Shown here in pieces: positions 1-25,608 of a stretch of 64,000 bases of DNA (position 1 is its first letter; the number at the start of each line of letters is the position of its first letter). Made by a program: the position numbers and the translations under genes. The notes below the pieces were generated by a model that was not told where the DNA came from, did no database searches, and saw only the letters and a list, made by a program, of their open reading frames with translations. Location: contig JAQYUZ010000012.1 in assembly GCA_033819885.1 (NCBI GenBank), positions 124,001 to 188,000 on the forward strand, given 5' to 3'. Origin of the DNA: Microbotryomycetes sp. JL201 (taxonomy: Eukaryota > Basidiomycota > Microbotryomycetes).

Positions 1-293
1 ACGTTTGCGATCCTGTGCTGCTGGCTAACCTGTTCCTGTCCTGTTGTTCTCGTGCCGACCGTTCAAACGATTTTTTTCGCCCTCGCCGTCACCCCCTTCC
101 GCCGTCATCTGGTGTCGTCTCGAACCGCTTGGCCCTCGTTTCAATTCATCAAACGCAATTTCCGTACATTGCCGCTACGTCGCGTGGTGTCGCCCGCCAT
201 CAATCGCCTTTCTTGCCCGGTCGCTCTCAAACTGGCCATCCGTGCATCAAATCGCTTACGTCGCCGTCCACAATCGCCGTCGTCTTCCAACAG
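1..293 (+). promoter_or_regulatory. Upstream region and probable 5' leader of RPS16
   Basis: This stretch precedes the ribosomal protein S16 start codon. It is pyrimidine-rich with many short C/T runs, as is common upstream of fungal ribosomal protein genes. The short open frames here overlap one another in several frames and resemble no family I know. I see no TATA box. A 5' untranslated intron cannot be excluded. The call of promoter plus leader is inference from position. Confidence 0.45.
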
Positions 294-1147
294 ATGTCTA
301 CCACCGTCCAGTCTGTTCAGACTTTCGGCAAGAAGAAGACGGCCACGGCTGTCGCCCTCGCTCGCGTACGTCGACATGTCGACTCTGTCGTCCGCGCCAG
401 ACCAGACAGCTGATTATACCGCTTCACGTGTTGTTTTGATCCGATACAATGCAGGAGGGCAAGGGCCTCATCAAGGTTAACGGTGTTCCTCTCTCGCTCT
501 ACGGCTCGCCCATCCTCCGCCCCAAGCTCTATGGTCAGTCTCATTTGACGTCGGACGTCGTCGATGCGCCTGGCCCGCCTGCGCGTGTTGTCCCGATAAC
601 TGTTCGTACCGGGAAGGACATTAGCAGGGCCGGACAGGGCATCGATGGGCATGCCTCCGCTGGCGAACTGAAGGCGCTGACGCGTGCATTGCCACAATGA
701 TGCAGAGCCCCTTCTCTTGTTGACCTCGTTCACGTCGTCAACCACCGGCCTCGCTTCGCCTCTGTCGCGCATGGATATCCGCTTGCGCGTCTCGGGTGGT
801 GGACACACCTCGCAGGTGTACGCCCTCCGCCAAGCCATCGCCAAGGCTGTTGTCGCCTACGTCGCCAAGTACGAGGATGCTGCCTCGGCTCTGGAGGTCC
901 GCAAGGCATTGGTCTCGTACGACAGGAACTTACTCGTCGCCGACCCGAGGCGCTGCGAGCCCAAGAAGGTGCGGCGACGATCTATTGGCGGAGCTGCGTC
1001 GTCCTGTACTTACAATTCTTTCTTGTCAAATATAGTTCGGTGGTCGCGGTGCCCGCGCTCGCTTCCAGAAGAGTCAGTTGCTGTTCTCGCGTCTCACTGC
1101 TTCACTTTGCCCTGACCAGTCGTTGCTGTCATCCAGGTTACCGATAA
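294..1147 (+). CDS. RPS16: 40S ribosomal protein S16 (uS9)
   Basis: Small-subunit ribosomal protein uS9, which sits in the head of the 40S subunit with its C-terminal tail reaching the P-site tRNA. Five exons join cleanly: 294-365, 455-533, 706-968, 1036-1072 and 1137-1147, giving about 153 residues. The start [20 protein letters not shown], the segment [10 protein letters not shown], the block [18 protein letters not shown], the stretch [13 protein letters not shown] and the ending FQKSYR are all diagnostic. The last exon is only 11 bases and supplies the final Ser-Tyr-Arg and the stop. The protein is about 9 residues longer than usual. The extra residues lie in the loop between EPLLLL and DIRLRV, and no GT-AG intron removes them. 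Identity is certain; exon borders follow from frame and family alignment. Confidence 0.96.
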
Positions 1148-3437: not shown

Positions 3438-6400
3438 CTACGTTTGATCTGCTGCTTTCCTATGCACTCTCCTGTGGTTACCTCGACCGCTTGTTGAACG
3501 TTGGTGAGATCCGTCGCCAATACCTCCGCCCGGCAACGGACCAAGAGCACCATTGCCAGGGCCAGGAGGGCGGTGTCTCTGAGCTGAAGTTGCGGGCATC
3601 GCTTGCTGCATCATCATAGGTCGGCCGCCCGCGAAGAACGGAGTGCTTTGCTGATGCGTCGGCTGTTGCTGCACAGGTGGATCCGGCATCGGCACTTTGA
3701 AGTTCTGCACGTCAACGCAGGAGCAGAACCCCCCAAGGAGAGTCAGCCGAGATGACTCTGGCACCGATCACAAAGTTGACGCACAGTTTGTTTGCCCTTT
3801 TGATATACTTCTTCCAACTCTTCCTCCCAGGTACCTTCAGCCTCAAGCCTGTTATATTCCTCGTAGAGCTGCAAGGCTGTGCGCGCGTCCTCAATTGAAT
3901 CATGCGTGTCGGCTTGGATAGCAGAGTCGAGGACTGCCCACGCCAAGAATCGCAAAGACAGTTTTCGTTGTCGATGGGGCAGGTGGTATATGTTGACGGT
4001 GTCGATGATCTGATTCGGGGGCACATAGATGTCTTTTTACGGCAAGTCAGCAAAGCGAGTCGAACATCATCACCTCGCAAAAACAACACACTGATGATGC
4101 GGAAATCCTTGTTGAGACCGTGACCGATGAACACGCATCCGAGGTCGACAAGCATTCTGAGCTTCTTGTACGCAACTTTCAGAGGCACAAGGGTATGTCT
4201 TGAATTATTCGGGTCCAGGTCACCGGCTGCCCTTGGAGGTGTAAGTCGCGCGCCCGAACGACGATAATCAAGAACTCACGTCGGATGCCTGAAAATTCCG
4301 TAAGATAGTCGACAACTGTTTCGCTCGTGTGAATGTAGTCGTCAATGAAAGGGATACCGGTATTCTCGCCTTCCCCCCGCAAAACGGAAACGCGAGCGAG
4401 CGTCATTCGACTCGGCCTAATGACCTTCTTTGTGCCATCCGAGTGGAACTCGGCCTCTTCTTGCTGAAGAGAAACAAACTCGGCATCGATAGGCACGAGC
4501 GTTCCGGGTCTTGGCACTTCGGTGGTTGCCAACGGCTGGTGCTTGACCAGAGTCGGATCGCGTCTCCTAGTTACGAGATCATCAGCAATGCTTCCGAGAT
4601 CGGCTGCCTTAAGCTCACTTTGAAGTCGTGAAGTCGTGGCATAGGATGGACGGGTCGCCCTTGTGCGGCAACGATGAAAAGTCGATAATGTCGCCACTGT
4701 CTTTGCGCTCATAGAATAATACGGCAGGAATCTGCAAGCGGCGAAAGTCAGCCACTTCGAGTGTCTGTGCTAGACATGCATGCGCACCTTCCATGTTCCT
4801 GGGAAGCTCAACGCTTCGTCTTCGCTCACGGGGCGGACGAGGAAATCGTTGAAAAGATGCCACGACGCCTCAGCCGATTCGCCAGAATTGACTGGATTTT
4901 AAACAACGTGAGCAAAGGTGGTCAGAGAATCATGAGAAGAAATACGGACCCTGAGCCAGAGCGACAAGATGTGACGGGTCGTCCTCGGGCTGGATCTGAG
5001 CCACCATTGCGCGAAGTTCGTACACGATGCTGCTAGGTGGGGCTTCTTGATCGCGCTGCAGGCATGTCACGCTGATGCTTGTATCCTGCTTAACGACGGC
5101 AAATCGAGGCGATAGGAATCGTGAGCCGTTCTCGAGTTTGTTGTCGAGCCATGTGTCGAGCTCGTCGGCAGTTCGGACTCCGGCGTTCACAATCAAGACC
5201 GGAGGCATCGGAGCGTCGGTTATGACGCGCCTGACTTTGACAATGGTCGACTGTTGACACGAAGCACATGGCATCCTCGAACTGTTTTCGCGATGGAACG
5301 AGTTGCGCAAGATGCTGGCAAAATCACTTGCCGGCGGAAGCTCATTGGATAGAGCCTGAACCATCAACGTGAGCCCTGGAACCAGCCGCGCCCAACCCGT
5401 GAAAGCTTACCTTTCTGGGATAGATGAGATCGAGCACGCCGAGGCTAGTCTCTCGATTGCTTTGCGCTCCGCAAGATTGACAAACGCTTACTGTGCCTAC
5501 GTCCAACCGCAATAGTTGGGCCAGAGGCGCACGTTCTTCGGCCTTTTTGAAATTTCTGAGCAGTCGAGTTTGGCTCTCCGGCAAATTTGACTCTGTGGTC
5601 ATTTGTTCGAGCAGATAGCGACTGAAAGTTTGGATCAAGGACGCATACGCGACGGAAGCCGAATCGCGGTCGTTGTCCATATCGAGAAGACCAAGTGCAG
5701 CAACTGGATTCCACACAATGTCGTCAGCTCGATATACACGAATAGGGCGCGGAAAGTGTGACTTGCCTTGCGGACTCGCGCCGAACGCTCGCGAGAAGTT
5801 GCTCGCTTGGCAATTCATGCCCTTAGCATCCTGGAGCATCCGAAACAAGAAGCCAGCTTCGCATAGCAAACAGTTCTCTTTGGGGCAGGCAGAGTAGGTA
5901 TGTGCTTGCGCCAGCGTTCGGACGGGCAGGGTGTAGTTAAGCGCCTGCAGGAGCGAGTTGGTGTACGAATTTGTGATATGCGTCTCGAGTCCTGAGAAAG
6001 CTGTCTTGTTGTAGAATCTGGGAGCGGCCATGTCAGCTCTATTCCGCAAAGTAGCTGCAGTGCATGCCCACCCAAAGTCGAAGTCTTCAACGCCGAATCT
6101 GCTGTACTTGATTTCGACTTTGCGGTAATGTTTGGGCATCTTGGATTCTGACGCATCGTCGTCGTCCTGCTCCGTCTGCACGATCTGTAGGGATAATTGG
6201 GTTTCAACGCTAGTGCTGGGGGCGGTTGAAAGGAACGTACAGAGACGACACGGTCTCGCTTCTTCATCATCTCGGCCCGCTCTTTGTCACTACGGAACAT
6301 TGGAGCATCAACGCCGAGCCTGCGCTTGTCGGCTTTGCTGCTTGGCACTTGGTTTCGCCGGCCAGCTGCTCGTGCGAATGCAGGGTATGCCGCGTAGCCT

Positions 6401-8233: not shown

Positions 8234-10771
8234 ATGGCCGCCGCCGAGCAAGACGGCTCGGTCGAGCAGCTCGTCCGGCCGAGCGAGGCCCGTGTGCTCG
8301 AGCAGTGGCACAAGACACTTAGCAACCCTTTGCTCAGCTTGTCACACATCAGAGACGCTGCCAAGCAGGGCCGTCTACCTCGCGACGGGCTCAGGTCTCT
8401 TCACTGGAGGGTCCGTGCCAGCCACTCCGCCTGTCCCATCCTCGAGCGCTGACATCCGGGATCATCGTTCTAGTACTTCTTCGGTCTCCTGCCATCTCCT
8501 TCAGTCCAGTCAAGATCTTCCGTGCCGACATACGGCGTCATCTTGAATCACAGCAGAGCAGAGTACTCGAGCTTGCGCGAGCAGTACCTCAGAGCTCCAG
8601 ACGGACATTGGGTCAATGACGGAGCCACCCAGCTCAAAAGCGATATAAATGCCCCAGAAAGACCATCGTCTATAGCTATGAACGTGCAAGTCAACAACCC
8701 GCTCGGTCTGGACGACGCCAACCCGTGGTCGACCTGGTTTCAAGATCTCGAACTCCGCAGAACCATTAGGCAAGACGTGCAGCGAACGTCAGCTGGGAGC
8801 ATTCAATTAGGCTTTCACAGGACAGTGTTGCTGATCTGTATCGTTTTCTGCACAGCTTCCCTGAGCTCGATTACTTTCGCGATCCGGCCACCCAAGACAA
8901 ACTCGTCAACTTGCTTCACATATGTTGCAAGTTGACGCCCGAAATCGGGTACAGGCAAGGGATGCATGAGCTGGTGGCGCCTATACTATGGATCGTCGAC
9001 TTTGATTCGGTCGACTGCGACGCCGATACGCCAGAATCACTGCCTCACCTCGTCTTGTCGCGCCGACATGTTGAACACGATTCGTGGGCCTTATTCTCGG
9101 CGTTGATGAGGTCGGCCAAAGTGTATTACGACTTCACGCCCTCAGTGCCGTTGGCGACGCCTGCGGCGTTAGCTTCAACGACCAACAACACACTCGCCCA
9201 CAACAAGGCCCACACTGGCGGGAGCACACTTGTACAGCCTATCGTAGCGACTGCCATCCGCGTGCACGACAATCTCCTCAAGATTGTCGATTTCGAGCTC
9301 TGGCAGAAACTGGAGGAACTCGCAATCGAGCCGCAGTTGTACGCCATCAGGTGGTTGAGATTACTGTTTACACGCGAGTTCCCTCTCGACGACGCCCTCG
9401 CCTTGTGGGACGGCATCTTTGCAGAAGATTCTACACTGCGACTCGTCGAGTACATCTGTGTCGCCATGTTGCTTCGGATCAGGGACGCAGTCCTGCTGTC
9501 AGACTATTCCGCCGTTCTGCAGCTATTGTTGAGATACCCAGCATTGCCGGACGGCACACACAATGTCTCGTTGCTGCTCGAGCAAGCGATCTACCTTCGA
9601 GACAACACATCCTCCGACGCTGGTCGTCGGTGTAGAAACCAAAACTTTGAGAACGGAGCGATAGCTGGCGTCGAAGTTGTTGCAGAGTTGTCAGGCGATT
9701 CTTTACAACGGCGGCGCTCGACGAGCCATGTGGCGGAACACAAGAAAGCAGAGCCCCCGGTCGGGTTGCTCGGTGAAGGCGGACTCGGCGAGTTGGCGAA
9801 AGGCATGTATGGCAGAGCAGAGGCGCTGGGTATCAACAAGGCATTTTTTGGTACGCTGAATGAGATCAAGGTCAGCGAAGAAGTCTGCTGTAGGCTGAAA
9901 GCTTGACACCTGACAAGTTGCCTCCGTTTCAAAGCGAGGGTACGCGCAAGCGCAAGCTCACAACCATGCTATACGGAGCGACGGCATGTCTCAAATCCCT
10001 TCCCGTTTCCCGTGGGATCCCAAACCATTGCCGGCCGCGAAAGATTATCTAGCAGAAATAGGCAAAATGCGCGCCACAAGCATCGCAATGGCAGACGCCA
10101 TCGACAGGTGCATCACTGTTCTACAGCAGGAAGTTGTCATCGGCAAGCCTCGCAGAACAAGCGTTCAAGCAGACACGGCCAAGACCAGCGAGGAGGCGGG
10201 AGATGGCGCTAGCTCGCCACCGCCAAGCGGCGAGACTTTGATGGCTCTCACGGCATTGTCTCACGTTCGCGACGTCTTGTCTGGCAAGGCGAGAACGTTT
10301 GACGTGAGCGTCCTCTCACCACTGAACCACGCTCTGGAGGATGGCCGGTTCCCTTCTCCTCCCTTGGCAGCGGCTGTCACTTCGGCAGGTCCGTCCTCTT
10401 CGGTTTCGTCTTTCGAGATCAACGGTGCTGGCGGGCAGGAGCCACGGCAGGTACCCACGAGCAGATCTTCGCCTGACCAATCGAGGACGAGCGTCAGTAG
10501 CTCATCGTCAAGCTCGTTACCTCGACCAATGACACCGCCTCTCATTCTGAGTAACCGGCATGGGGACAAGCCCTTGCCCGCATTGACTCGTATTCCATTT
10601 TCGGCCGACCAAAAGGGCTTGCCACGCGTGCCATCGCTGTCGCCGCGGTCGTTGCCGGATCCAAAGGCGCTGCCAACACATGACTCTGCGGTGGTTGAGC
10701 CACTTCAAGCTGTATCTGAAAATCCGCCTGCTCCGAAGGTCCTCAGCGACCCTCTTGGCGTTTCACTGTGA
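8234..10771 (+). CDS. TBC1D5-like Rab GTPase-activating protein
   Basis: TBC-domain RabGAP most like TBC1D5, which acts on Rab7-type GTPases at endosomes and with retromer. Four exons are inferred: 8234-8410, 8474-8787, 8856-9870 and 9935-10771. The joins are phase-consistent and give GLRSLHWR|YFFGLLP and DVQRT|FPELDYF. The TBC1D5-type block YRQGMHELVAPILW and the tract FELWQKLEELAIEPQLYAIR are present, the latter carrying the YxxRW-type motif around the usual Gln finger. The domain has a large Asn/Thr-rich insertion. The last exon is low-complexity Ser/Pro-rich and is probably a disordered tail. The acceptor at 9934 was selected because it is the only one tested that keeps the tail in frame without a stop. 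Confidence 0.85.
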
Positions 10772-13021: not shown

Positions 13022-14327
13022 ATGTCATTTGTAGAGAGTTTGTTTGGCCTGTCTGGCAAGACTGCCTTGTGCACAGGCGCAACTCGGGGCATGTAAGTCT
13101 TGGGGTTCGAGTTCAACTCGGCTAGCATAGCATCATCGTTTCTCATTGTATTCCTTGCATGGATGCAGCGGTCAGACGATGGCCGTCGCCCTCGCCAAGG
13201 CAGGCGCAGATGTTGTTCTCGTTCAGGTAAGCGACGCATCGCATGGCCCTCCGCCTCCGGAGCTTGTCGCTCATCTCTCGCGCGTTCATTGCAGCGGAGC
13301 AAAGAAAATTTGGAGACGTACGATCTCATCAAGCAGCTTGGACGCAAAGTGGACATTGCCGTGTGCGACCTGGCTGATGACAAGGCTGTCAAGGCTTTGA
13401 CAAAGACCATCACCGGACCCAAAGACAAAGGCGGCATGGGCTACGAGATTGACGTGCTCGTCAACTGCGGCGGCATCCAGCGAAGGTCAGCTGTCATTCA
13501 CGCCAGTGTACTTTCAGAGCGATCCAGCTGAACTACGTCACGTTCGCGCAGAACACCCGCCGAAAACTTTCCCGATCAGGATTGGGATGACGTTCTCCAA
13601 GTCAACCTCAATGCCGTATGGGTCCTTGCGCGAGATGTCGGGCGACATATGCTGGCTACACGAGGTGGCATCGCAGGCGAAGAAGCTCCAGCTCAGCAAA
13701 ACCCTCGCGGCAGAGGCAAGATTATCAACATTTCTTCTCTCGTCGCCTTCCAAGGTCAGTCCAGTCTGTCGCAGTTTACTTCAGCCATTTTTACTGACGA
13801 TCTCGTCTTCCAAAGGCGGCTTGACTGTTCCGGCCTATGCCGCAGCGAAACATGGCGTGCAAGGCATCGTAAGTGCGTCTCCACCCCTCGCGCTGCCGCT
13901 ACTGATGGATGCATTTCTGCAGACCAAAGCGCTCTCTAACGAATGGTCGCCAAAGGGCGTCAACGTCAACGCCATCGCCCCGGGCTACATCGCCACCGAT
14001 GTGAGTTTCGGAGTAGCTTGTTCATGGTTTGACAAACCGAATTGACATGACCTTTGCCCTTTGCAGATGTGAGCATAGAATCGTCTCTACAGACTCTGAA
14101 CAAAGTCTGCTTCTCTCGAGACGTCATGCTGACTGTGCGGCATCTGCAGGAATGAGGCTTTGATCGCCAACCCGACTCGATCTCGTCAGATCATGGAGCG
14201 CATTCCCGCTGGACGATGGGGAGCACCGGCGGATTTTGAAGGAGCAGTAGTGTTCCTCGCCAGTGCAGCGAGCGACTACGTGTGCGGCGAATGTCTTGTG
14301 GTCGACGGTGGATGGATGGGTCGATAA
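13022..14327 (+). CDS. KduD-like short-chain dehydrogenase (2-keto-3-deoxy-gluconate/gluconate 5-dehydrogenase type)
   Basis: NAD(P)-dependent oxidoreductase of the SDR superfamily, closest in pattern to KduD and gluconate 5-dehydrogenases. Visible features are the cofactor motif TGATRGIG (assembled across intron 1), INISS with the catalytic Ser, YAAAKHG with the Tyr and Lys, and the ending [13 protein letters not shown]. Exons: 13022-13092, 13169-13226, 13295-13485, 13552-13754, 13816-13868, 13923-14000, 14067-14068 and 14150-14327. The seventh exon is only two bases (AT). It is needed to read GYIATD-M-NEAL, the family's normal sequence. Direct joining of exon 6 to exon 8 puts a TGA at once. 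The gene is divergent from the dehydratase and convergent with the channel gene 89 bases downstream. Its substrate is inferred, not known. Confidence 0.9.
14067..14068 (+). other. Two-nucleotide microexon of the KduD-like gene
   Basis: The dinucleotide AT sits between a ttgcag acceptor and a gtgagc donor. It is flanked by introns 14001-14066 (66 bases) and 14069-14149 (81 bases), both with consensus ends. Inclusion turns GAT | AT | GAATGAG into Asp-Met-Asn-Glu, the family sequence. Skipping gives Asp-Glu-stop. Confidence 0.75.
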
Positions 14328-14416: not shown

Positions 14417-17160
14417 TTACGTGTCGTCATCGGCTTTGCCGAGGTCTTGCTCGATGGCCCCAGTGAGAGAAGTCAACGGCGGGCGGTCTTCGACTTTGAC
14501 GTCTGATTTCGCCAGCTCAATCAGCAACACACGGAGCTGCGGGGCCTGTCGTCAGTGAAAGACGTCGATCATCTGTCCAATCCAAGGGCTCACAGACTGT
14601 TCAATACTCTCCAAACGAGCTTCAATCGCACTGTTGCCGACACTATTCCCGGCGGATCCAACGTCATTTTGCCCACCTAAAGTCTGTTGGGCTTTCACTG
14701 CCGTATCGGCATTGAAGATTTTGGCCAACGGACTGGCCAAGCTGCCCATCCTCGAATGCTGCCGCTCTGGGATCGGACCTTGAGACTTGCTCCTCACAGG
14801 GGCCTGTCGCCTGCCCGGCGTCAACACATTTGTCACTGAGCTTTTGCCTGACCTGGGAAACATGGGCGGGTTGGCAATGACGCTAGCTGCAGACTGAGGC
14901 TCCACAGGAGTTTGTTCATCTGGTGTAGGCGGATCGTCGATAGATGGAACTTTGAGCGCCTCGGCTGTGACTTGACGATCAAAGACGTGCTGGATTGAAT
15001 CAACTGTGCCTTCGAATGGGATGGTACGAGGAAGAGAGTGCCAGGCGCGTTTTGTCGTCTGCACGATGTCAGACAAGTAAGTCCGTCGATGGCGTGCGCG
15101 TGTCGACAAGGCCAACAATCTGTAAGTATGAGAGAGCTCAGAGAGGGCTGTGCGAATGAAGCTGCAGGGGCGGAAGCTTACAGCAATATCGGAAAGTTGA
15201 GCAATCTGGTCAGGAATACGTGCGTCTTGTGCGTCCACCTGATTTGGTATAGTCAGCAGTTGAGCTCGCATGTCATACAATACAAAGCACAACTTGCCTC
15301 GGGGTGGCCATCGCGCGCACAGGGAGCAGTACGAGAAGCGCTACCAAATTGAGCGGCGGCATGTATGACGACGTTGCATCGCTCTTGACGCGTTCTATCG
15401 TCCTCAATGCCTGTTGATGTAAAATTTCCGTCTCGGCTTGACCTTGAATTGCCGCAAACGTGTTACTTAGCAGAGATATTAGGATAGTGAGCAGCAGGGT
15501 CTGGGACAGCGTCGCGAAAACGACAACTAGAGCAGGACCATATATGTCGCCAAATTGCTGGGCGACGTCGAATGCAAGGAACGACGAGCCGAGCCAAACC
15601 TTGAGGAGGAGCCACGCTGTGCGCGCCCACGACCATGTGCCTCTGCTCAGCAAGACGAAAGTGACGAGAAAGCCGGATGCAGTCAGACTGGCGAGGGCCA
15701 TGAAAATGCTGCCAATACACGACGGTGAGCACCGGAACAGCATACGCAAACGCGTATACGAGAAGTCTCTCAACCTACATATATTCCTTGATCATGGCCT
15801 GGGACAATGAGCGGGTCAGCCGGACCGAGAGCACACTTATAGGCCAACACTCACAGACAGTGCCATGAGCACCACATTGCCTCTGAGCAGCGAGATCGCC
15901 AGTCTAGGAAACAGCAGACAGCCTGCCAAAGCCAGCGTATCGAATGACAGATCCGACATTGCCTCGTCGCCGGTCCACAAGCCGTTCAACCTCATCACAA
16001 AGTATACGAGGAATGCAAGCACAAACAGCGCGTCCATGACATTGTATGCACCCGAAGAGTAAATGGTCAAACCATTCTCTTGCATAGACGCGACTTCGTC
16101 GAGCGCAAAGCCCAAGCTCCATGCAACAAAGAGCGCCTCCCAAATGGTGACGCGAGTCGAGTCGTGTGTGAGTTGGCAGGCCATGAACAAGAACAAGATG
16201 ATGGCAAACGTGCCGAATTCGAGTTTGTTGCGAATACTCGGAACTCGCAGGCGATTGTGGTCGAGGAACGGCTGCGTTCGCCAGTCGTACACCTGGACGA
16301 TCGGACGCACTTTGTAATCGTCTCGAATGAAAGCATGAGCCGACTCGGGAGAGTACAGCACTTCGCCCGTGTGGATGCTTTTGATAATTTGCTGAACAAG
16401 GGGTGAGCGGACGAAGCGCTTTGCTTTGCTAAAGATTGCCAGCTCGAGCGCGTTTGTCTGCTCCTCCTTGCCCCAGTGTATGAGTTTCTCGAGCGCTGCG
16501 TCGTCGACGTCTTCTTCGTCTGCGAAGCAATCGGTTGTCGCGCCATACATTGGGTTGAATGGCGTTGTGAGAATGTGGAGCAGTTCGAGGCTGGCAGGAG
16601 CAGTGCCGTAAGCAGACAAAAGCTTTATCGCGAGCAACTCGCACAGGTCTGCCCGCGAAGTGTTGAGTGCGCTGCAGTGTCGGTGGCGTGTCGGTCAAAG
16701 TGGTCAGCTTACTCGCCTGAGCATGACGCTCCACAGCTGCACGGAGTAGGCCGGCTCACGCAAAAGCTAAATCGTCGTCTGCGACGTCGAGAAAGTGTAC
16801 TCGGCAGACTAGGAGGGCATAGATGAGCGCCGAAGGTGGGCGCTGTCCGCCACGCGAGAGCTTCAACGAGAGCGGCCTGACGACACTGAAATTGATGGTC
16901 GGCTGCCTGAGCTGCTCATACGTCAATGGCGTGTCTAGTATTGCCGTCACTTCACTCCGGATCCTGTTCAGAAGCTGAAAGGTCGGCTCGACGTTGAAGC
17001 CGCTGAACGGCCGCATTGTTGGCTCAAACGCGTCGCTCTCATGTCCAAAGTGTTCGGGATCAGTCAACAGCGGCTGCGATGTCCCGGCTGCAGCGCCCGA
17101 CGCGGCTCCTGACGGCATCATAGTGGGGGCTGCGGAACCCGGTGAAATACTTCGAAGCAT
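14417..17160 (-). CDS. YVC1: Yvc1-like TRP-family calcium channel of the vacuole
   Basis: Fungal TRP-type cation channel, in yeast the vacuolar Ca2+ release channel. The long cytoplasmic N-terminal domain starts MLRSISPGSAAP at 17160 and includes LELLHILTTPFNPMYG. Several hydrophobic segments follow (TFAIILFLFMACQL, VMDALFVLAFLVYFVM, LALAGCLLFPRLAISLL). The pore region then reads WLGSSFLAFDVAQQFG before the last helix with LLLTILISLLSNTFAAI, the usual Yvc1 ending of the membrane part. The C-terminal tail is charged and Ser/Pro-rich. A final exon is inferred after a gtgagc donor: APQLRVLLIELAKSDVKVED leads to a stop at 14417-14419. This replaces the unspliced stop at 14552. Confidence 0.9.
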
Positions 17161-18319: not shown

Positions 18320-21300
18320 CTACGAAGATCTGACGCTGTACCGGTGACTGCTCGGCGGCAGACCAAGCGATCCTCTTGAAGACAAGCGCGCTGGCGCGAC
18401 ATTGCTTGTCACTGCCGTCGCAGACGCCGAACTTGATTGTGTTCGGGCACGATTTGTCGATGAAGCGGCAGCGGAAAGCGACGAAGTTGATGCTGACGTG
18501 TTCATGATCGAAATGACTTTACGACGCGGCGTAGAGATTGCGGGCAAAGGCGAGCTCGTATTGGAGCTATTGCCGCCGGACGTTGCGAGCGAGCTGCGAT
18601 TGCTACGGCTAGCTGGCATCGCCGGGCTGATCGGCCTGCCTCGTGCTGCTACGATCCATGGGTCTGCATGCACATGTCAACAACTCCGAGCGCTCGGAAT
18701 CAGCAAGCCAAGTCTTCAACTCACGTCGCAGCGCTGCGTCAGGCTTCATGCGACGCTCTGGATCCCAAATCAGACACTTGGCAATAAAGTCGACAAACAG
18801 GTCGTCGTCTGTTTTGAGGACATGCGCCAAGCTCTTGGTGCCCGGCCGACGCCGTCTGCCCTTTGAATTCACGACCGGACGAGGGGCACCAGTCGAATCT
18901 GATGGGACAAACCGCCTCAGCACATCCTGCACAAGCTCTGACAAGCTCTCCAGCTCACCAAAGAATAGACGCTTGCGCGAGCTGCGATCTATCAAGTATT
19001 TGTCTGGCACGCCCATGACTTCCATAATACATCCGAGTTGTTCCTGCTCGTTCTCGCCAGGGAAGATAGGGTAGCCGGTATACATCTCGGCAATGATGCA
19101 GCCCAAGCTCCACATCTGTACAGAGCGTGAAAACAGCCTTCAGTCGAACCGCCGCACGCGAGTTGTGATCAAGACTGACATCGATGGCCATGTGGTAATT
19201 CATGCCCAGAATGACCTCAGGACTGCGGTAGAAGCGAGACTGAATGTACGTGTACACTGCGACATGGTTTAGTCAATTTCAGGTGAGGCGGGGACGCAGA
19301 CCGCAAACTCACCCTTCTCGTGCTCGAAGCAGCTGCTGCCGAAATCGATTACCTTGATCGCGCTCTTCGCCGGATGTTTCAGCAAGATGTTCTGTGAGAG
19401 TACGATTTCAGCTCCAATAGCGCGCAGTCTGAGCTCGTTTCCGCACCTCTGGCTTGAGGTCACAGTGCACGACGCGGTGATGCCTGAGCAGAGACAGCGA
19501 CCCCAAAATTTGAATTGTAAAACGTCGAATGAGTGTTGTTGAGAAGCCGGCAAAGCTATTAGCCTTGACGAGCTCGTACAAGTTAATACTCAGTAGTTCC
19601 GTCACGATGCACAGATGACCGCGCCAGGTAAAAGAATCGACCATTCGGATCACATAATGCTTCTCTTCAGGATCCTTTGTAGCGCAAAACGTCAGCCAGT
19701 CATCCTCGCATAGACATGGCAACAACCGACTGACCCATTTGACCAGATTCTCTAGGACCTTGATCTCTACAAGCGCCTGGTGATGGAATCGCTTTTTGTT
19801 GCGAATGATCTTGATCGCCACCATTTCTCCCGTCTTGTGATCCCGACACTGAAGCACTTGCCCGAATGACCCTTTGCCGAGGACGTCAACGATTTCATAC
19901 CGATACTGGATGTGGTCATGCGTGATCACCAAGTAGTCGCCGCGGTCGTCATCGTACCCATAGTTGTTCGTCGGGTTGTCAAGCGTATTGCGTTTCTTTT
20001 CAGCTTGGGGACCAACAAAGTATACGGATTCGAACTGCCGAATCTCGTCTTGCTCGTACGGCGTGAGCGAGCGGTTGTAGAGCGCGAGGGCATCTATTGG
20101 CAACTGCAAGTCAGCCAGACATTCAGTCGATCATGAATCTGCTTCGAACACACCTTTGTGATCAAGAGGTGAGGTCGGAGGAATCGGTTCTGGAAACTCA
20201 AACATCTTGTTGATCTTTTCTGGGGATGCGCCCGCCGCGGCCTTGCTCGCCTTTTGACGCTTGACGTACGCATCCATCTCCTCGTCGCCAAGCAACTCGT
20301 CCTCTGTCACGTTCAATTTCGTTCGAGAGCTACCTGTCGACGATCGACCCGAGTCTGATGCCATCGAGCTCAGCGTGGGCGCTGTCGACGACCTCGGCAA
20401 ACGAGTTTGGCCGGCAACTTTGCTCGCAAGATTCTTGACCACTCGAGTAGTGGACGACGAGAGGGAGGATGTCGACGACTGTAGAGCTGACGAGGCCGAA
20501 ACGCGCCGAGATGCAGCTATAGAATCTGGTCCCTTGACAGATATCTTGCGGACCGAGGACACCTCCTTTGGCGGTGGCACTCCGCTGCTTGACAATCGAG
20601 AAGTTGACACAGAGGCGATTTTCGCACTTTTGTGCGTCTTCGACGGAGTCGCACTCTCCTCCGGAGCGAAAGACTTGTGTCGCCTCGATTTGATTGCTGG
20701 AGTCGACGTGCTTGCTGCATCAGCTGATGCGTCCAGTACATCTTTCTTCAACGACGTCGACATTGAAGTTCCAACCAGAGTAGAGCTACGACCGCGAGGG
20801 ATCTGAGACTCTTTCTTGACCGCCAGACTCTTGCTTTGCCGTTCTTCGTTGTCGGCAACGTCTGTGCCGATAGACTCTGTCTCGGACGCGGCATTGGATG
20901 AAGATGACGTCGAGGTTCCCGATGCAAGTAACAGATCTGGCGTGTTACCTTGTTGGCGACTCGACTGCAGCCCTTTGGAACGGATAGGTACAGACGGAGG
21001 CGCGGACGGCGATGCGTCTCTGTAGATCGAGCCTCGCTGAGGTAATAAGCGAGGAATTTTGGTTGGGGTCCGAGACAGCGGAGGTGGCGAAACGGATGAG
21101 CCGGCGACGACGTCTTGACCTTGCAGCGAAATCGTCTTGCTTGAAGGTGAGCCAACAATTGTCGGCAAGCTCGCCTTCGCGGAGGCCTGAAGTCTTGCTA
21201 CACGGTCATGCGCAGCTGCTGGAGTGTTCCCAGCAACATCGGCGAGCGAGTCCATGGAGTCTATCCGCTCGATTGTCTGAGCCGGTAGCGGCGAGACTTG

Positions 21301-24300
21301 CATTGGCGGGAGTTGCGTGGGCCGAATGTTGAGCGTTGCATGGTCATCGTTCGCCCCGACGGTCTGCATAGAGAGTGTCAGCAAGAGCACACCAACTGTT
21401 CTGCACCTGTTGCTGACCTTTCCTCTCCTTCGAGGAGTTCCGGCCACAGTCGAGGCCTTGCCTTGCATGTGGTTTGTCTTGGCACCAAACTCGTCAAAGC
21501 CGCTCCCGTTGTACACGCTGGGTGACTTGGTCGAGTTTGACGACATGGAGCCGGATTTGAGCGAAGGCGAAGACTTTTCTTTCCTTGACGAGCTTGGTCT
21601 GAGGAAACCCAGACCCAGGATAGATTTGCGTCCGCTTCGATCGTCAGATGCCGCATCCTCTGTCGGCTGCACAGGTGTCTGCGTGGCGCCCACATTGGGC
21701 GAGCTATTTTTGCGCGAAAAGAACGGAATGCCTGAAGGAGTGCGGCGAGGATTGAGTAGACTTGAACGAGATCGACCGGGGCTGGTTGCGACGACCGCCG
21801 GCGTGGCCGTAGTTGCTGCCGTTTTTGAAGTGCTCGAGCTGCTCTGGCTTGTTGTCCTCGATCTTGGTTCGCGACCTCTGTCGAGACCGGCTGCCAGGCC
21901 GACAATATCATTAGAAGATGACACCATGCGACGAGCGTCCGACAAATGACCATGAAAAGACGACTTGCGGTCTCGGCCGACGCTAGCTAGCTCTGTGAAC
22001 GACGCGGACTCGGGGAACGCAGGCGTCTTCGGACTTTTAGCCGCCCTGTGGAAGGCGCTCGAGATGCTCCATTTGCGCGGTGCATGCCGAGACGCTTGGG
22101 GAGGGACTTCGGCGCACGTTGACGACAGAGTCGACCCGGCGTCGTAGATTCCCGGCTCGGTGTGAGGATGAGCGAGTTTGGGTGAGGTGTACAGGTTGAG
22201 GCTTGTCGTTGATGCCGCGGTCGGGAGCTGTCGAAACGACTCGAGATCCTTCGGCAAAGGCGGAACAGGAGGAATGTCGGAACCGACGTCGGCGTCGGGA
22301 CCACCACTGTCTTGTCTTTCGAAGCGCGGCTGAGACGCGTCCGCCCAGCTGTGGAGCGAAGAAATGTCGCTTCCGATGCTGCCGCGCCGATTCTTGGTCG
22401 ATGTCGACCTGTTTGTGGTGCTCGTGATTGAACTGGCATATGGCGAATCATGCGAGCCCGTCATTGATGCCGACACTCCGGTCATGACACTCGTAGATGA
22501 GGCAGAACCACGCTTCAATGGCGGCGACCGTACGAAAGATCCACCATCGTTGCCTGAAGAGCTTGGTCTCGAGCCGGCGGGAGGCGCTTTCGGCGACACT
22601 TCGGCAGCAGCCGGGCTCGTTGCAAGCGGTGAGCGAGGTACGTAGCCAGGTGAAGACGGCGACAGTTGTGGAATAGCCGGGCTGCTGCCGGCGCTTGACG
22701 TGCCGCCGACCGACAAAGTGCTCGACTTGAGGCCGTCTCCATGGACTCGCAGCGAGTCTTTTGCTGATACCAGCGACGGCGTCACGACACTGCTTCGACC
22801 TTTCCGCTTCGACTTTGCCTCTTCAGAATCTCGCCTCGGTAGAGCAGGTGGCGTCGACGGGTCACTCGCACGACTGTGGTTGCGAGAGCGCGAGGCGGCT
22901 GGTGGGGCGCTGCCGGTGCTCGACGATACTTTGGACATCCTCGGAGACGACAAGCCATCGAGTTTTCTCAGAGCTTCGGCCGTGCCCTCGTCCACAGCGG
23001 CGGCTGACTCGATGTCGACGTGACTTCCTTCAGCCTCGCGCGAGTGCTTCAAAATGGATGCGGCAATGATGGACGGCGACGATTGGTGAGATTGACGCGC
23101 GTGGCGCATCGAGTCGGCCGATTTACCCGGCGTCGAATGTGCCGATGGCGCGGCCACGTTGGTTGTCGATGGCAATGGCGGCGGCGGCTCCTGACTGAAC
23201 AGGTACGTAGGTGGAGCAGCCGGCGACGGAGGTAAATGGGCAAAAGAGTTTCGACCAGCCGAATGTCGCCGGACTGCCATCGTCTTGCTTGGCAACTTGG
23301 CTTCGATCGAGTTGGAACGTCCAAGGCTGGATCGTCGCGAGCTCGTACTACCCGTTGATGTGCGTCTCTGATGAACCTTGCCCTTCGGCGTTTCGGTTTC
23401 CGCCAGCTTAGCTGTCGCAGCATCATAATCGAAGCCAAGACCCATGACATCCGAGTCATCCGGGGCGGCCCAATCCGCCTGCTGCTTCGTCAGCGTGAAA
23501 CTACGTCTGTTTTGTAGTGCCATAGACTCGAAGGCATCAGCAATTCCAGCAATATCCGAGTCTCCGGCAGTTGCCAATTCGCGGTCGAACGCCACCGAGC
23601 CGGACTCGAACGTGCCATTGTCGTAGCTGGAACCAATGGGAGCCGATTTCGGCGTTTTGGGCGCAGCGACTTCCGGAAATAGCGTCGTCGGATGCATCGC
23701 AAACGTCTGTGAATCCGGCAGAGTCTGAATCGACGGCGACTGGTCCGACAGTTTTCGAGACATCGTCGGCTTGCCACGAAACATGTCAGTATGGCGCATT
23801 ATCAATCACATACTGTGGAATCTTACCATTGGCTCTTGACTAGGTCTGCGTGCAAGAGAAGATCTTCTCGAGCCCTCTTCTAATTCGCTACGCGGTCCCA
23901 CGTCCAGCGGGCTTGTCCACTTGCGCTCGAGCACGCTGCTTGTCCATCTCGGTGTTGCAAGCTCACCCAGACCAACCAAACTCGTTCGATCTAGCACGGG
24001 CGACTCGATCTGAAAGCTGTCCCTTTCGTCTACCACAAACTCTCGGCTGTTTTCTCCACTTGCCTTCTTGGTCTGAAAGTTCCTCGCCGGTATGAAGTGA
24101 TGGTCTGCCGGCGAAGATGAACCGGTCAAATTCGACAAGTTGGCGGACGCTGACGCCGAGAACGGCAGACCCAAGCCAAAGTTGGCGAAAGTTCGAGTGC
24201 CGTATGCTTGCGGCGAGCTGAGATGCGATGCGCTCTGAACATGAGACCCCGGTGGCGAAGAGGACACGTGCGTCGATGAGGATGCTGACGGGCGACCTAA

Positions 24301-25296
24301 TACGAGTGCCGGGCCACTGTCTCGCGGCGAGCTCGCGACAAAATCTTGGGACGACACGCCAAGAGACGCAGAGGGTATGGCAGTGCCGAGATATGCCGAG
24401 GAAAAAGTGTGTAAGCTCGACAGAGTGTCTCGTGCTTCAGTCTTTGACGGGCTCTCGTTCGGGCGGAGTGGTGGCGCTGGCATCTCGTCCCGAGTCAATT
24501 GCGGTGCATCCTGGACGAGCTTCGGACTCCGTTTCAGACCAGGTGCGTCCTGAAATCTGTCAAAATCGAGCTGGAGCGGCGCTGGCGGCCTTTTTCGGGG
24601 CGAAGGCGCGAGCTGAGAAGGCTGCTGGTCGGCGCTCGAGCGCGACGAAGGCGAATCTGCCGCGAACGAGCGCCCGACTGGCCTCGGACTCGTACCAGTT
24701 CGAGCAATCGAGTCTACCAAGCTCGATACGCGCGGCGACGGCGGTGGTTGCTGCCTTGGTGATCCTGATGGTGACGCGTTGTTGACGGACGATAACTTGA
24801 AGCTGCCCATCCTCGGCGAAGCCTGTGCCTGTTGGTGCGCATGCGGACTCGATTGATTGTAGTCTGCAAATACGTCCTGTGTGGACGCCCTCGCGGGGCT
24901 ACTTGGTCCTGACGAGCTTGCGGTCGCGGCGGAGCGACTCTTTGACGCGCCATGGTACACCGGAGACGCCGAAGACAGCTGCACGCGCACTGCATGGCCA
25001 ATTGACGTTCTTGGCTGAGTTGCACTGGCGTCTTGTGAGCTCAAAGTCCGTCGCGCTGCCGTCGTCGTCGCCAATGGCGCTGGCTGCGGCTCGGCGCTGA
25101 CCGACGACGACGACGAGTGACTGATGCCCGCGCGTGGCTGCGGTCGCGACGAGGTGCGCTCTCTCGTGCTGAGCCTGTGCCTCGGTGGCGACGACGACTC
25201 GGCCATGTCTGCGAGCGCGGCCTGCGATCCGTTCGAGTCGACAGCGGGAAGTGGGGGCGAGATGGATGCTGTCAGTGCCTGCACGCGAGTATGCAA
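18320..25296 (-). CDS. Large DYRK-family protein kinase, Pom1-like
   Basis: Serine/threonine kinase of class II DYRK type. Pom1 in fission yeast sets cell polarity and size at the cell tips. The N-terminal 1,700 or so residues (25296 to about 20150) are Ser/Pro/Arg-rich and look disordered. A DYRK homology box follows ([29 protein letters not shown]), then GKGSFGQV, the ATP-site Lys in [37 protein letters not shown] and the activation loop [17 protein letters not shown]. The end of the domain is restored by an intron near 18664-18720 that creates LRHPWI. A Ser-rich tail ends at 18320. One intron (21364-21417) is 54 bases, in frame and stop-free. The start at 25296 ([11 protein letters not shown]) is the first ATG of the frame; later ATGs are possible. 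Confidence 0.88.
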
Positions 25297-25608
25297 GCTC
25301 CGCGCTCACAGAAGAGTATCTTGTCTGCTCAAATTCGTCTAGTGTGACATGTGCGCGTGGCTGTATGACGAAGCGAGATTACCCTGCGCTAAAGGTTGTC
25401 CATCGCCGAAATAATGAGCACGTGCGCCGAGCACATCGTTTCCAGCGCAAGTGTGTTACACGCACAATTTGAGATCAAACACATCTTGAGGCAGTTTCTT
25501 GCCACAATGGCGAAATGAAAAGGAGGTCGCCAGTTCGTGCGCAGTCTGCTGCTCTTGCTTCGCTCGCAACAAGTCGTTAGGTCTTCCTTGCCTGAGAAGG
25601 CGCACAGA
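25297..25608. promoter_or_regulatory. Divergent promoter region between the Pom1-like kinase and OST4
   Basis: A 312-base gap between two outward-facing start codons. I see no TATA box and no credible coding sequence. The OST4 side ends in a purine-rich leader just before its AT split-start exon. Confidence 0.4.

Follow-up and report, generated by a model that had tools for sequence, protein, structure and literature searches.

Exons of only a few nucleotides are known but rare. Single-nucleotide exons have been established in plants, in APC11 of Arabidopsis (PMC4674806) and in APC11 and VPS55 (PMC8831610), and exons of 2–5 bp are stated to be known from Arabidopsis, Drosophila and human (PMC12940212). 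For APC11, the available text favours intron definition with ordered removal, and cites a 9-nt exon of potato whose downstream intron is removed first (PMC4674806). In the Fusarium gene CYP621A, a 1-nt exon was described within a conserved motif; its neighbours are out of phase, the joint intervening length is 139 nt against a median intron of 56 nt in F. graminearum, and all listed transcripts but one are wrong at the exon (PMC12940212). The shortest of the microexons in the P450 genes of the basidiomycete Phanerochaete chrysosporium is given as 6 bp (PMC1184071), and CYP5141A1 contains one of 8 nt (PMC12940212). A glucose-regulated microexon of 20 nt occurs in Xlr2 of Trichoderma virens (PMC11121469). 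Stwintrons, in which one intron is nested in another, are complex fungal introns that are removed by consecutive reactions (PMC5639578).

The gene described here, which encodes a KduD-like dehydrogenase in Microbotryomycetes sp. JL201, very probably contains a well-supported ultra-small exon of two nucleotides, AT. Like the exon of APC11, this exon would be frame-essential and misannotated (PMC4674806, PMC8831610). With CYP621A it would share a fungal host, a conserved motif, out-of-phase neighbours and a joint intervening length of over twice the median intron (PMC12940212). The plant exons are of 1 nt and were confirmed by RNA-seq and RT-PCR (PMC4674806, PMC8831610), and the 1-nt Fusarium exon is documented in the available text by DNA from 20 orthologues (24 genes are also given) and by 18 RNA reads (PMC12940212), whereas the JL201 exon is proposed from sequence alone. 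The microexons of P. chrysosporium P450 genes and CYP5141A1 are likewise basidiomycete, tiny and located in enzyme genes, but they belong to the P450 family and are at least three times longer (PMC1184071, PMC12940212); that of Xlr2 is also fungal but ten times longer (PMC11121469). Stwintrons resemble the locus in having a complex intervening sequence and two-step removal (PMC5639578), whereas in JL201 the splice signals are uninterrupted and two exonic bases would remain. Among the matches listed from the open-access literature, as far as their available text goes, no earlier 2-nt exon was found in basidiomycetes, the shortest exon from that group being 6 bp. If transcripts confirm it, a 2-nt exon will have been located in a basidiomycete metabolic gene, with the whole puzzle contained within about 150 nt. 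The locus would then be a compact natural test of whether a spliceosome can process an acceptor that is only two bases from the next donor, and of the order in which it does so.

The gene lies in a window of 64,000 nucleotides (positions 124001–188000 of contig C4), the whole stretch of DNA that was analysed from the 17.15-Mb genome of JL201. Its eight predicted exons, all on the forward strand, join into 834 nt encoding 277 aa without an internal stop. Exon 1 (13022..13092) begins with the ATG start and is followed by exons 2 (13169..13226), 3 (13295..13485), 4 (13552..13754), 5 (13816..13868) and 6 (13923..14000). Intron A (14001..14066; 66 nt, GTGAGT...TTTGCAG) separates exon 6 from the putative AT exon at 14067..14068, which would supply bases 1–2 of the Met219 codon, and intron B (14069..14149; 81 nt, GTGAGC...TCTGCAG) leads to the last exon (14150..14327), which ends in TAA. 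By motif alone, the likely branch points are TTGAC at 14042..14046 in intron A, with the A at 14045, and CTGAC at 14129..14133 in intron B, with the A at 14132. The protein is termed 'KduD-like' because its 298.9 bits against the top-scoring and nearest curated family, KduD (NCBIfam TIGR01832), fall below the cut-off of 338.85. Among solved structures, its best relatives are 4hp8 and 4z9y, both named 2-deoxy-D-gluconate 3-dehydrogenase. A close paralogue was not found in the JL201 genome, where the next-best scoring match shares 32% identity across residues 6–274 and shorter, weak pieces reach up to 41% identity; with none close, the use of a paralogue as a control for gene structure was dropped.

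Exon 6 closes in phase 0 with GCC ACC GAT at 14000, just before gtgagt, and the last exon opens with G AAT GAG GCT at 14150, directly after ctgcag. Both borders, given in the preliminary description, were seen directly and were recovered when the gene was rebuilt by script. The two exons are offset by two bases. If they are joined straight to each other, with 14001–14149 removed, the reading becomes ATDE-stop, the stop that had been claimed, and the product is cut to 219 aa. A canonical acceptor and a canonical donor flank AT in ttgcag-AT-gtgagc, and inclusion of the two bases gives ATD-M-NEAL and keeps the frame to the C terminus of the 277-aa protein, so that omission breaks the frame and inclusion restores the conserved protein. 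The residue order thus restored had been called normal for the group, and Met stands at this position in 116 of 120 homologues (the best 120 of at least 8,000 scored); the others are P0001 (gap), P0003 (V), P0092 (I) and P0101 (L). AT would therefore be essential in the sense of being essential to the reading frame. Its placing 'exactly halfway' was too precise, as it lies near the midpoint with unequal flanks of 66 and 81 nt. That no other acceptor within 14001–14149 gives an open frame holds for a single step from donor 14001; acceptors 14156, 14189 and 14198, just beyond, are open, and so is a junction between a weaker donor, 14027, and 14149. An exon of two bases is indeed near the smallest possible, although 'smallest possible' itself overstated the case, since 1-nt exons have been published.

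The competing gene models were scored against a profile of 118 homologues, that is, the best 120 of at least 8,000 scored candidates minus P0001 (JL201) and P0003 (from the sister species JL221), with the query also left out. The 140 models comprised 138 that are open and in frame, the 2-nt exon among them, together with skipping of AT and full retention. Sixty-two had a single intron of at least 31 nt, with a GT or GC donor in exon 6 or beyond and an AG no later than 14299, and 76, including the 2-nt exon, had two (GT donors, introns of at least 40 nt, sites up to 14199). The 2-nt-exon model ranked first with 476.1 bits. Second place was shared at 467.1 bits by a model with the weak donor 14013 and by one with a 12-nt exon (14093–14104) and the acceptor AATGAG. 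The summed splice scores of the 2-nt-exon model (20.8 + 18.7) were also the highest among the 14 best listed, the nearest being those of the 12-nt-exon model (20.5 + 17.3). The best one-intron rivals were 14013–14156 (463.4 bits), 14016–14156 with a GC donor (462.8 bits) and 14027–14149 (460.3 bits), followed by 14001–14156 (459.6 bits) and the public model, 14001–14189 (424.2 bits); skipping of AT scored 341.4 bits.

Two of these one-intron models start from the good donor at 14001. A single 156-nt intron, 14001–14156, with the weak acceptor AATGAG at its end, keeps the frame open and would yield a 274-aa protein without Met-Asn-Glu. It falls 16.5 bits short of the 2-nt-exon model, however, and 119 of the 120 listed homologues are ungapped at this place; it would also leave ttgcag-AT-gtgagc to chance. 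The public annotation, with a 189-nt intron (14001–14189) and a 263-aa protein, matches the deposited P0001 but scores 52 bits worse than the 2-nt-exon model. The 14 aligned positions after exon 6 that it drops are filled in 119 of the 120 listed homologues, the exception being P0001 of JL201 itself, and the DNA it would excise encodes the missing residues in the right frame.

Splice signals were compared with several intron sets from JL201. From 264 kb of the genome, the dehydrogenase gene excluded, 189 ab initio introns were retained after filtering; by construction, this set contained GTNNGY donors, YAG acceptors and a CTRAY branch motif at lengths of 45–100 nt. GTGAGT and GTCAGT were its joint most frequent donors (21 each), and GTGAGC occurred 11 times. 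Its median length was 63 nt, with 50–93 nt spanning the 5–95% range, so that 66 and 81 nt are unremarkable lengths. A decoy branch motif yielded 80 candidates where the real one yielded 228, so that about a third of such candidates would be expected with the decoy. Filtering training introns by codon score proved too weak, and EM and open-frame sets were used instead. In a self-trained and noisy EM set of 906 introns, with region 13900–14200 excluded as donor, intron A stood at the 98.8th percentile as a whole (donor 88th, acceptor 96th, branch TTGAC 88th) and intron B at the 88th (donor 85th, acceptor 55th, branch CTGAC 66th). In an earlier EM set, for which a CTRAY branch was required and the dehydrogenase gene was not excluded, intron B was at the 85th percentile (branch motif 83rd) and intron A only at the 40th (branch motif 2nd), because TTGAC, the best branch motif that it offers, does not fit CTRAY. 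Introns 1 and 2 of the same gene stood at 2% and 1% in that earlier set. In both EM models, donor and acceptor are better in intron A than in intron B; the better branch motif belongs to intron B by the CTRAY set and to intron A by the EM set.

The rivals fared unevenly in the same sets. A single 149-nt intron, 14001–14149, reached the 89.5th percentile in the EM set and the 92nd in the CTRAY set; all sets were limited to about 100–119 nt, so that these figures say nothing on how rare introns of 149 nt are. Splice scores by themselves leave the 149-nt intron standing, and only the reading frame excludes it. In the noisy EM set, intron 14001–14156 came to the 70th percentile, but its GAG acceptor lay at the 10th, compared with the 55th for ctgcag seven bases upstream, and ranked at the bottom in the CTRAY set. 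Intron 14001–14189 came to the 71st, with its acceptor at the 19th. In the CTRAY set these two rivals sank to the 2nd and 5th percentiles respectively. The 189-nt intron is moreover three times the median of the filtered set, itself limited to 100 nt. Taken with the homologue scores, the 156-nt intron is very unlikely, and the publicly annotated 189-nt intron is hardly credible.

The chance of meeting such an arrangement was gauged by shuffling the 149-nt stretch 20,000 times with its dinucleotide counts preserved and its first 6 and last 25 nt fixed. The pattern YAG-NN-GTNNGY, flanked on both sides by introns of at least 45 nt, the first of which holds a branch-like motif, was present in 98 of the 20,000 shuffles. 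A 2-nt pair with a strong GTVAGY donor arose in 16 of the 20,000 and AT with a strong donor in three, while any frame-restoring size (2, 5 or 8 nt) was met in 315, and in 82 with a strong donor.

Public protein models depart from the family at this very codon. P0001 (hypothetical protein OIV83_002554 [Microbotryomycetes sp. JL201]) lacks exactly 14 residues of the 277-aa protein and is otherwise identical to it; intron 14001–14189, with its acceptor at 14189, yields precisely that loss. P0003 comes from JL221; both JL201 and JL221 are unclassified Microbotryomycetes (Basidiomycota). At the same codon, it reads ATD-VSQPCLS-NEAL. The JL221 model seems to read through a natural donor, since Val-Ser after Asp fits GAT GTG AGT, and its last exon seems to begin with the same G, as the Ser before Asn can be TC-G. 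The stretch is consistent with read-through of a natural donor for want of an in-frame joining. Both models thus leave the family at the Met219 codon, each in a different manner, and, judging from the JL221 protein model alone, the AT exon may be conserved in that species. After the junction, four of 58 residues differ between JL201 and JL221, compared with 19 of 191 before it, which indicates that both species have conserved the last exon in this frame. As a failure of annotation, the site costs one species 14 conserved residues and apparently gives the other a false stretch; frame conflicts at over-long introns may offer a handle for finding more such exons. The start of P0003, too, is placed 27 residues late, and its initial Met is one that exon 2 of the JL201 gene encodes.

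The JL221 comparison bears on two further readings, in which the gene or its sequence is damaged. By an assembly or sequencing error, or by a true 2-bp deletion, AT could be missing from a reference in which one 149-nt intron originally ended as ...ctgcag before ATGAATGAG; the reference letters concerned are ctgcagGAATGAG. The end signals of a single 149-nt intron are good, and the frame would be broken in the same way if two bases were lost. Against this, the JL221 model departs at the same codon and, by its protein letters, appears to resume at the same G of the last exon, and the placing of AT between acceptor and donor would be a coincidence. Departure at one codon in both species argues against an assembly error, and an error or deletion is very improbable. 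A pseudogene, in which exon 6 is joined directly to the last exon and a truncated 219-aa protein results, would agree with the high joint score of donor 14001 and acceptor 14149. The rest of the gene is open, however, the last exon differs between JL201 and JL221 no more than the remainder does, and no close paralogue is there as a substitute (best other match 32% identical, residues 6–274). Conserved flanks thus argue against a pseudogene, which is even less probable than an error or deletion. On the present sequence evidence, then, sequencing error and pseudogene both appear unlikely.

Under the 2-nt-exon reading, the Met219 codon would be split by a second intron that begins 2 nt after the first, giving two canonical GT-AG introns of ordinary length. 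Short fungal introns are usually recognised across the intron (intron definition), and introns A and B would each be recognised in this way. The factors on acceptor A and donor B, two bases apart, would overlap, so that the introns are probably removed in turn. That exon definition would be inapplicable to AT had been proposed before, with sequential intron definition as one of two alternatives to it; both this point and sequential splicing are soundly inferred. Either order of removal would leave GAT-AT-G, whereas skipping of AT would bring a stop two codons on and the 219-aa truncated product. With the signals intact in either order, the arrangement would be neither a stwintron nor recursive splicing through a zero-nucleotide exon. 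The latter would have the acceptor AG and the following donor GT side by side; it was rejected here, as two bases remain and are needed. A stwintron in place of two introns around an exon would have a precedent in the fungal introns removed by consecutive reactions (PMC5639578, available text). Removal of an outer intron 14001–14149 would, however, produce GAT-GAATGAG, out of frame whatever the inner intron, and no splice element is interrupted, both introns having whole donors, acceptors and branch-like motifs; a stwintron is thus extremely unlikely.

The two introns of the 2-nt-exon model may differ in age. In P0080 of Mycena indigotica, 17 extra residues stand right before the Met, and in P0107 of Roridomyces roridus the protein resumes exactly at the Met; these odd models point to an older phase-0 intron before the Met codon in that group. 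P0080 and P0107 also suggest further misannotation at the Met codon. Judging from these two Mycena-group protein models, intron A may lie at the older phase-0 position, and intron B may be a later gain in the JL201/JL221 lineage. P0002, P0004, P0005, P0013 and P0015, which we take to be Microbotryomycetes proteins, have a normal Met at this codon. It could be imagined that the 2-nt exon acts as a splicing checkpoint, at which active enzyme would come from strictly ordered removal alone and a short protein from skipping, the order or rate of splicing thereby tuning the enzyme level, and that ultra-small exons recur, and are missed, in Microbotryomycetes through new introns landing beside old ones, but this is a speculation with little likelihood.

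An origin of intron B as an introner was rejected, as it has no near-identical copies in the genome: a search matching intron B alone found no second copy in JL201. Its origin as a tandem duplicate of intron A was likewise dismissed, the likeness of the two being no greater than that of random intron pairs. Among 4,000 such pairs, the score was equalled or exceeded by 70% when whole introns were compared, by 35% for the 3' ends and by 34% for the bases after the acceptors. In the predicted fold of 14060–14150, TGCAGATG at the 2-nt exon is complementary to, and paired with, CATCTGCA at acceptor B. Unusual RNA stability was not found in the 2-nt exon region (z −0.59; 52 of 200 shuffles equalled or surpassed its stability). 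A homology-free scan for exons of 1–6 nt covered 264 kb on both strands, with a branch pattern that was widened after the AT site had been seen, and returned three sites including the AT exon, against 1, 0, 2 and 1 with four decoy donors. As this is the decoy level, the 264 kb hold no clear excess and no claim of wider abundance is made. The other two candidates, of 1 nt and 3 nt, lie at L038:1622–1769 (+) and on the reverse strand of L025 at 157–353 (reverse-complement coordinates); both were set aside as unconvincing on translation and at the decoy level.

Eight of the 38 listed open frames in the window were compared with Pfam. Matches were obtained for a UCH_1 (ubiquitin hydrolase domain) frame at 5345–6286 (−), a RabGAP-TBC domain frame at 8770–9903 (+) and a TRPY1/YVC1-like calcium channel frame at 15840–16694 (−); a Pfam match was not found for the remaining five of the eight. 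No Pfam match was found for a 1,224-codon stretch within 20131–25305 (−). In that region, this stretch and one of 499 codons abut in the same frame, with one stop between them.
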